Shown here one piece after another: positions 22,572 to 25,554 of a DNA stretch of 64,000 bases. The position numbers and the translations under genes are program-made. Below the pieces are notes generated by a model. It did not search any database. It was not told the origin of the DNA and saw only the letters and a program-made list of their open reading frames with translations. The stretch spans positions 1 to 64,000 of the forward strand of contig JAFGCX010000034.1 in assembly GCA_016932415.1 (NCBI GenBank), read 5' to 3'. The stretch is from Candidatus Krumholzibacteriota bacterium (GTDB lineage Bacteria > Krumholzibacteriota > Krumholzibacteriia > Krumholzibacteriales > Krumholzibacteriaceae). The number at the start of each line of letters is the position of its first letter. Position 1 is the first letter of the stretch.

Positions 22572-23015
22572 ATGGAACTATTATTGAAAACCAGCGTTCC
22601 CGGACTCGGAGAGCGTGGAGACATAGTCAAAGTCAAGCCTGGCTACGCGAGAAACTATCTTTTGCCGAAGAAGATGGCCGTGCCTGCTACCGAATCGATG
22701 AAGAGAGTGATTTTACAGGAGAATCGCCTTATCGAGATCAGGGAAGACAAGGTCAAGCGTTCTCTTCAGGAAGTGGCAAAGAAGATGAAGGACCTTTCCT
22801 GTACGATCGTCGTCCAGGCGGGTGAAGAAGACAAGTTATACGGCAGCGTGACCGCCCATGATATCGCTGAAGCGATATCGCAGCAGGGATTCGATGTCGA
22901 TCAGAAGATGGTCATGCTGGAGGACCCGATCAAGATGCTGGGCGTCTATACTGTTGATATACGGATCCATCGAGAGATCGAACTGCCCGTAAAGATCTGG
23001 GTTGTAAAAGAATAG
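22572..23015 (+). CDS. rplI: 50S ribosomal protein L9
   Basis: A 147-residue L9 of typical length. The N-terminal rRNA-binding domain (MELLLKTSVPGLGERGDIVK, then GYARNYLLPKKMAVPAT) is joined by a long charged helix (about 40-75) to the C-terminal domain (KLYGSVTAHDIAEAI, IKMLGVYTVDIRIHREIE). It ends the rpsF-rpsR-rplI operon. The gene after it, a phosphomannomutase, starts 28 bases later at an apparent ATC codon. Confidence 0.96.
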   Translation: MELLLKTSVPGLGERGDIVKVKPGYARNYLLPKKMAVPATESMKRVILQENRLIEIREDKVKRSLQEVAKKMKDLSCTIVVQAGEEDKLYGSVTAHDIAEAISQQGFDVDQKMVMLEDPIKMLGVYTVDIRIHREIELPVKIWVVKE

Positions 23016-23043
23016 GGTATAAGCCGGAGACAGGAGGTCTGTC

Positions 23044-24420
23044 ATCGATATCCCGAAAAATATATTCAGGGAATATGATATAAGGGGCCTGGTCGACAAG
23101 GATCTTACTCCCGATAACGTAAGATTGCTCGGTGGAGCTATCGCGGTGACGTTGCGACGTGAAGATATCGGTACGGCAGTCGTCGGAAGAGATGTACGCC
23201 CCAGTAGCAACAGTTATTTTGATGCGATGACCGACGGGCTTATGAAGGGTGGGATCGATGTTGTCGATATAGGGACAGTTCCCACACCAGTGCTTTATTT
23301 CGCCGCTGAAAGATGGGGCATCAGGGGCGGAGTAATGATAACGGCAAGTCATAATCCAGCAGAATTCAACGGATTCAAAATAATCCGGGGCGACGGATCG
23401 GTATATGGCAAGGATATTCTCGAACTCCACGCGATCATAGAAGCTGGTGGTCTTTACTCGGATGGAAACGGGAAAATGACAAAGAGGGATGCCAACAGCG
23501 AATATATTGAATATCTCGTTTCCAATATCAAGCTGGCAAGGCCTGTCAGGTTCGCCATTGATGGCGGCAACGGGACGTCGGGGATATCGGCTCCGGAGAT
23601 ATTCAGGAGACTCGGTTGTGACCCCGTCGAACTTTTCATGGAGCCGGATGGCACTTTTCCCAACCACCACCCCGATCCTACCGTTGAAAAAAATCTCGTG
23701 GACCTGAAAAAGGCTGTTATCGAGGGTGGTCTTGAACTCGGCATAGGATTCGATGGAGATACCGACAGGATCGGAGTCCTTGATGATAAAGGGAATATCA
23801 TCCGCGGAGACAGCCTCCTGGCGATATACAGCAGAGAAATTCTTGCCGATAATCCAGGTTCGTCGGTTATCTTCGAAGTTAAATGCTCACAGGGACTCGA
23901 AGAGGATATTTTAGCCCATGGCGGAAAACCAATCATGTGGAAAACGGGGCATTCTCTTATAAAAAAGAAGATGAAGGAAGAGGGAGCTCTTCTTGCCGGT
24001 GAGATGAGCGGCCACCAGTTTTTCGCCGACAGGTATTTCGGTTTTGATGACGCGATATACGCTGCGTGCAGGCTTCTCGAAATCGTTTCGAGGAGTGAAG
24101 TCCCTCTCAGTGAAATTTATAAGAGTCTTCCTCAATATATCAATACCCCGGAGATTCGTGTCGATTGCACCGATGAAAGCAAATTCAGAATAGTGAACGA
24201 GATACGGGATTATTTCAGGGCGACGAGGGAAGTCATAGATGTAGATGGCGCCAGGGTAAGATTCGACAAGGGATGGGGTCTGATAAGGGCTTCGAATACT
24301 CAACCTGTGCTGGTCCTGAGGTTCGAAGCGACCGATAAAGAAGCTCTCGATGAGATCCGAAGGGAATTCTTCGCCATACTCGGTAAATATATCGATATTT
24401 CGGGAATTATCGATGGATGA
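23044..24420 (+). CDS. phosphomannomutase/phosphoglucomutase, apparent ATC start
   Basis: A 458-residue alpha-D-phosphohexomutase. All family elements are visible: N-terminal NIFREYDIRG, the phosphoserine loop MITASHNPAEFNGFK, the metal loop GFDGDTDRIGV, the sugar loop AGEMSGHQFF and the C-terminal phosphate loop IRASNTQPVLVLRFEA. It probably interconverts mannose 6- and 1-phosphate, as manC follows. No ATG, GTG or TTG lies between the upstream in-frame stop (23020) and TTG 23125, which would delete the REYDIRG motif. A perfect AGGAGG (23032-23037) stands six bases before ATC 23044, so ATC is the likely start, barring a sequence error. Confidence 0.88.
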   Translation: MDIPKNIFREYDIRGLVDKDLTPDNVRLLGGAIAVTLRREDIGTAVVGRDVRPSSNSYFDAMTDGLMKGGIDVVDIGTVPTPVLYFAAERWGIRGGVMITASHNPAEFNGFKIIRGDGSVYGKDILELHAIIEAGGLYSDGNGKMTKRDANSEYIEYLVSNIKLARPVRFAIDGGNGTSGISAPEIFRRLGCDPVELFMEPDGTFPNHHPDPTVEKNLVDLKKAVIEGGLELGIGFDGDTDRIGVLDDKGNIIRGDSLLAIYSREILADNPGSSVIFEVKCSQGLEEDILAHGGKPIMWKTGHSLIKKKMKEEGALLAGEMSGHQFFADRYFGFDDAIYAACRLLEIVSRSEVPLSEIYKSLPQYINTPEIRVDCTDESKFRIVNEIRDYFRATREVIDVDGARVRFDKGWGLIRASNTQPVLVLRFEATDKEALDEIRREFFAILGKYIDISGIIDG

Positions 24421-24486
24421 TACCGTATAATATCAAGCCTGGTTGAATCATTTCTGTCGCTTTCGATCCTGATTGTGGGGTATATA

Positions 24487-25554
24487 GTGTACGCTGCCAT
24501 CCTTGCAGGAGGAAAAGGTAAACGCTTCTGGCCTTTGAGCAGAGCTGAGAGACCGAAACAGTTTATAGATATATCCGGTTCTGGAACAATGCTGTCAGTT
24601 ACATTTGACAGGGTCTCATCACTGATCGACCCCTCGAAGATATTCGTCCTTACCGTCGAGAGCCAGGTCGATCTGGTCCACCAGCAGCTTCCACTGATAC
24701 CCGAAGCCAATATATTTCCCGAACCTGCCGGAAGAAACACCGCCCCTTCCCTTGCCGTAGCGGCGGCGATGGCCCTGGCAGCGGGAGATGATGAACCTCT
24801 GCTCTGCTGTCCGTCAGATCATATAATAAACGATGCTTCGTCATTTGAAAGAGTCGTCAGGCAAGCTGCCGTGATAGCTTCGAAGCAGGATATTCTGATC
24901 ACTTTCGGAATCAGGCCGGTTTATCCTTCCACGGGATACGGCTATATAGAATCGGGTAGCCCCCTGGATGGTGGAAATGGCGATATCTATTCAGTCAGCA
25001 GATTCCATGAAAAACCGGAAATAGAAAAGGCTCGCGATTATATAAACAGGAGCGGATATTACTGGAACAGCGGGATCTTCATGTGGAGGCCGTCAGTATT
25101 CCTCGACGCTTGGAAAAGGTTTGTCCCTGAGGGAACGGAACCGCTCGAGAGGATCTCCGAAGCGATAGGATCAAACCGGTTCATCGATACAGTCGGCCAT
25201 CAATATCCATTGATGCCGGCGGTATCAGTCGATTACGGGATACTGGAGAAAGCCGATAATGTGGCGGTCATACCCGCCGATCTCGGCTGGAACGACGTCG
25301 GATCATGGGACGCTCTCTATGATATTCTTCCCGCGGACGAAGACGGGAACAGAAGCCCGGGAAAAGTCGAATCGATCGATTCGACGGGCAATCTCTTCTT
25401 TCATCCGGGAGGAACGATCGCGGCTATTGGAGTGAAAGATCTGATAATAGTTGTAGATGGCGATACAGTCATGGTATGCGGCAAGGGAGAAAGCCAGCGC
25501 GTCAGGAGTCTGGTCGAGAAGATGGAAAAAGAAGGAAAAAAGGAGATTCTTTAG
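24487..25554 (+). CDS. manC: mannose-1-phosphate guanylyltransferase
   Basis: A 355-residue nucleotidyltransferase that makes GDP-mannose from mannose 1-phosphate and GTP. It has the signature LAGGKGKRFWPLSR (about 5-18), ERPKQFIDI, the FPEPAGRNTAPSLAVAA region, PSDHII, FHEKPEIEKA, YYWNSGIFMW and ADLGWNDVGSWDAL. It lacks the C-terminal isomerase domain of bifunctional ManC/AlgA. GTG 24487 is preferred because homologues begin just before AILAGG; GTG 24475 would add four residues. With the upstream mutase it forms a GDP-mannose supply module for the glycan genes. Confidence 0.93.
   Translation: MYAAILAGGKGKRFWPLSRAERPKQFIDISGSGTMLSVTFDRVSSLIDPSKIFVLTVESQVDLVHQQLPLIPEANIFPEPAGRNTAPSLAVAAAMALAAGDDEPLLCCPSDHIINDASSFERVVRQAAVIASKQDILITFGIRPVYPSTGYGYIESGSPLDGGNGDIYSVSRFHEKPEIEKARDYINRSGYYWNSGIFMWRPSVFLDAWKRFVPEGTEPLERISEAIGSNRFIDTVGHQYPLMPAVSVDYGILEKADNVAVIPADLGWNDVGSWDALYDILPADEDGNRSPGKVESIDSTGNLFFHPGGTIAAIGVKDLIIVVDGDTVMVCGKGESQRVRSLVEKMEKEGKKEIL

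Follow-up and report, generated by a model that had tools for sequence, protein, structure and literature searches.

An AUC start codon kept across nearly all of an order of Candidatus Krumholzibacteriota probably opens a phosphomannomutase/phosphoglucomutase gene

The gene for a phosphomannomutase/phosphoglucomutase (PMM/PGM, here PMM) in a bacterium of the Candidatus Krumholzibacteriota very probably starts at an ATC codon at position 23044 (probability about 0.88, judged from the comparison of sequences). Positions refer to the window, the 64,000-nucleotide stretch of DNA that was analysed; it belongs to G000, a 3.1 Mb draft genome from a metagenome-type assembly that is about 95% complete. 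It is reasoned that initiation takes place at this ATC because the frame offers no alternative start, because the third base of the codon follows the pattern of a start codon, and because in one relative the codon has shifted its position and is still found at normal Shine-Dalgarno (SD) spacing. The features of the region are as follows.

22572–23015, plus strand: rplI (ribosomal protein bL9), upstream of PMM and in a different frame; named from the gene order pth-rpsF-rpsR-rplI and from its sequence
23020–23022, plus strand: in-frame stop TAA, which excludes starts farther upstream
23032–23037, plus strand: Shine-Dalgarno AGGAGG, 6 bases (TCTGTC) ahead of ATC
23044–23046, plus strand: ATC, probable start codon; among 20 order members, ATC in 16, ATT in 2 and ATG in 2
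23044–24420, plus strand: PMM/PGM gene when AUC is taken as its start; 458 aa and a stop codon
23065–23088, plus strand: conserved N-terminal signature FREYDIRG
23125–23127, plus strand: TTG, first canonical in-frame codon, 27 codons past ATC; apparent false start of the mechanical ORF list
24475–25554, plus strand: manC-like mannose-1-phosphate guanylyltransferase gene, downstream of PMM; named from its N-terminal motif

The product is an alpha-D-phosphohexomutase of the PMM/PGM kind. It has four PGM_PMM Pfam domains, each above the cut-off in a Pfam profile search, and the phosphoserine loop (TASHNP). Bacterial PMM/PGM enzymes provide the closest solved structures (E about 1e-124), and the alignment with them runs from residue 3. 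The nearest NCBIfam model is PgmG (NF046027), but the score of 497 bits is under the curated cut-off of 600 bits, so the protein is not placed in the PgmG equivalog and the family assignment does not fix its preference for PMM or PGM substrates. The rplI-PMM-manC cluster is conserved in Candidatus Krumholzibacteriota, and the manC-like neighbour is kept in the class. The start of the manC-like gene is itself uncertain, with in-frame GTG codons at 24475 and 24490 and no strong SD (24475–24492).

Following the stop at 23020, the sequence reads GCC GGA GAC AGG AGG TCT GTC ATC GAT ATC CCG; the stop leaves seven codons before ATC, and IDIPKNIFREYDIRG comes after the ATC. Direct reading agrees with what an initial annotation had stated about this region: no ATG, GTG or TTG occurs in the PMM frame between the TAA at 23020 and the TTG at 23125, AGGAGG stands six bases before ATC, and the conserved signature is encoded ahead of the TTG. 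It could be supposed that translation starts at this TTG or another downstream codon and that the upstream frame is untranslated. TTG is commonly used as a start in G000, and gene callers would make this choice, as the mechanical ORF list does. Such a start is nevertheless very unlikely, as it would place the SD 80 bases away and remove about 27 residues, including the FREYDIRG strand of domain I, a loss that had been foreseen in the initial annotation; the residues before the TTG show conservation in every homologue as well as in the solved PMM/PGM enzymes. A search for RNA structure in the start region, made by folding the single sequence 23005–23090, found none that stands out (z = -1.6; 12 of 200 shuffles fold equally well).

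The real AUC start proposed by the initial annotation is supported by the relatives. In the order, the start could be read in 20 species: 18 have ATC or ATT at the site, including the congener G001 (ATC), and only the pair G002 and G019 has ATG. The 86 homologues examined from beyond the order, which belong to other families of the class and to other phyla, all carry ATG, GTG or TTG near the site. The simple alternative that had been offered, a sequencing or assembly error that changed ATG to ATC, gains something from the metagenome-type origin of the window, and all genomes of the order that were used are draft or metagenome assemblies. It is refuted by the ATC or ATT found at the same place in 17 other species from separate assemblies, and its probability is negligible.

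As in infC and sigR, the PMM genes of the order keep a near-cognate codon at SD distance (18 of 20 members), and the conserved N-terminus has no usable ATG, GTG or TTG. Of the 18 AUC/AUU members, 17 lack a canonical start near the site, the exception being G023, which has a TTG two codons later; in G020 a TTG lies six codons ahead of the AUC/AUU start. All 18 have a purine-rich SD ahead of the start. GGAGG is present in 17 of them versus 39 of 88 canonical-start PMM genes (Fisher p = 6e-5, with the relatedness of the rows partly ignored), and a stronger SD is what is expected if the SD compensates for a poor codon.

The codon does not behave as one for isoleucine. ATA is absent from the PMM start (0 of 18), compared with 30% ATA among the Ile codons of the same genes (P = 0.002), and each of the seven internal invariant Ile columns contains ATA, three to six times. 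The third base at the start thus varies as in a start codon, unlike an Ile codon. In G004 the ATC lies one codon farther upstream and the SD spacing is still normal; what is conserved is therefore the codon at SD distance rather than an aligned residue. The presence of ATC and ATT without ATA would also fit a second, dedicated initiator tRNA with anticodon GAU that reads AUC and AUU. No such tRNA was found in the part of the 40 tRNA hits that was read in the assembly (about 95% complete), where the only tRNA with initiator features has the anticodon CAU, and one relative of a flippase gene described below starts with ATA; a GAU initiator accordingly has a very small chance of being the explanation.

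A different route to the protein would be a frameshift or read-through from rplI, which would make a start codon of its own unnecessary. In all members in which the region is covered, rplI lies directly upstream of PMM. Against this, all three frame relations between the two genes occur; in AUC/AUU members the genes are separated by anything from 24 to 96 bases; there are stop codons in between; and ATC is preceded by a strong SD at the usual distance. Production of PMM from rplI is extremely improbable.

When start types are mapped on a protein tree that leaves out the start region, two changes are needed to explain them (unrooted count), and 0 of 500 shuffles are as low, in a test that ignores part of the relatedness. 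Since every outgroup has a canonical start, this is most naturally read as a single gain close to the base of the order, followed by one reversal to ATG in the G002/G019 pair.

Initiation at the AUC may proceed as follows. The strong SD (AGGAGG, spacing 6) would position AUC in the ribosomal P site, where the ordinary initiator fMet-tRNA (anticodon CAU) would pair with the first two bases, the third being mismatched. We infer that fMet is placed at the AUC, and the protein would then begin with Met (MDIPKNIFREYDIRG). A CAU tRNA with initiator features, read by eye, is encoded at C20:279740 (GGG/CCC anticodon stem, no Watson-Crick pair at 1-72). The poor codon would make initiation slow and expose it to rejection by IF3, and the output of PMM would thereby be held well under that of the upstream ribosomal-protein genes. 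G000 carries an IF3 gene, whose product can be aligned along its length to IF3 proteins of solved structure. A low and IF3-tuned output of PMM, as suggested by the parallel with infC and sigR, is put at close to even odds, slightly on the lower side. The AUC state would have become established early in the history of the order and been retained from then on.

The serious rival to IF3 tuning is that the AUC start is neutral: that it arrived by drift, is compensated by the strong SD and has no role in regulation. The order uses TTG freely, several unrelated genes also have AUC starts, and the codon is dispensable, as two species have reverted to ATG. On the other hand, 18 of 20 species have retained it along long branches although a single base change would restore ATG, and this long retention suggests selection for a weak codon. 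A neutral origin is on balance doubtful, yet it carries considerable weight.

PMM is not the only gene of this kind. When 2.13 Mb (two thirds) of G000 was screened for near-cognate codons that follow a strong SD and have no canonical start nearby, three further convincing genes emerged, every one with ATC; their names are taken from sequence motifs. The acyl-CoA dehydrogenase-like gene (C38:22119 minus; L181:962-2119) has ATC behind GGAGG, and its close homologues in the order have ATC or ATT in 14 of 19 cases; the remaining five carry ATG at the preceding codon. The Wzx-like flippase gene (C8:66327 minus; L262:5017-6327) starts with ATC; in six close homologues the codon is ATC, ATT or ATA, preceded by a strong SD, and nine of ten more distant ones have GTG, TTG or ATG. 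The Wza-like polysaccharide export gene (C20:20708 minus; L225) has ATC ahead of its signal peptide. Its start is ATC or ATT in G000, G001, G009, G010, G011 and G015, of which G001 and G011 are weaker cases with an ATG within three to six codons downstream, and most other members have ATG at or near the site. The comparison with infC drawn in the initial annotation is apt: infC of G000 (C20:41378 minus; L186:800-1378) begins with ATC behind AGGAGGT, and most order members read likewise have ATC or ATT there, preceded by a strong SD.

A murF-like gene 17 kb beyond the window (C34:80839) has ATC and, two codons before it, an ATG, and in G001 it has ATT behind GGAGG; it is a tentative case. A lipid A acyltransferase-like gene on C20 is a further candidate for a near-cognate start. 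The ATC at C35:32687 was judged to be false, a prepilin-like ATG start being present 24 codons downstream.

In raw counts from the screen, ATC is found at five SD-like sites versus 2.0 expected (P = 0.05). This excess is weak because most of the slots are untranslated leaders ahead of true ATG starts; only cases that are isolated and conserved carry information. Isolated starts behind GGAGG in the 2.13 Mb comprise 24 ATG, 13 TTG, 6 GTG and 4 ATC. ATC and GTG are thus of the same order of frequency among them, given small numbers and slightly different count criteria. TTG often serves as the start behind GGAGG in this part of G000. It is proposed, at somewhat less than even odds, that the order regularly uses AUC (with AUU) as a minor start codon, in tens of genes per genome, and that these form an IF3-tuned set including envelope and polysaccharide genes.

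Bacterial AUC and AUU starts documented outside infC are few, to our knowledge. The pcnB gene of E. coli starts at AUU, and proteogenomic work by Baudet in 2010 reportedly revealed non-canonical starts in Deinococcus deserti. These cases are like PMM in that a non-canonical start occurs in genes other than infC; the genes and lineages differ, and we know of no order-wide conservation of either.

A close parallel in conservation and SD is sigR of Streptomyces, which starts with GTC in 32 of 34 species and GTT in two, has a strong AGGAGGTG ribosome-binding site, and for which repression by IF3 has been measured (PMC5472188). sigR shares with PMM a non-canonical start conserved across a lineage together with a strong ribosome-binding site. 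It differs in its codon, in encoding a sigma factor and in being conserved at the level of the genus rather than the order, and the effect of IF3, measured for sigR, is inferred for PMM. infC starts with AUU in E. coli and ATC in Streptomyces (PMC5472188) and thus resembles PMM in having AUC or AUU behind a strong SD. infC, however, encodes IF3 and is autoregulated, whereas PMM is a metabolic enzyme for which such a loop is impossible. In a survey of 36 genome triplets, a single change to AUU was counted among 61,358 ancestral AUG starts, and a change to AUC is not listed (PMC5622118); given this rarity, an order with several stable AUC/AUU cases is unusual.

Starts at AUU, AUC or GUC are already on record for single genes. 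What is new here is the gene and the lineage concerned, how deeply the start is conserved, and the occurrence of several such genes within one order. No earlier report of a PMM with an AUC/AUU-type start was found in the literature searched, and one may still exist. Gene finders limited to ATG, GTG and TTG would shorten PMM and similar genes in the genomes of this order. An order-wide AUC case in a metabolic enzyme, together with the further conserved cases, is natural material on why a poor start codon persists, and the AUC/AUU-start genes of the order are material for asking whether the level of IF3 sets a regulon.
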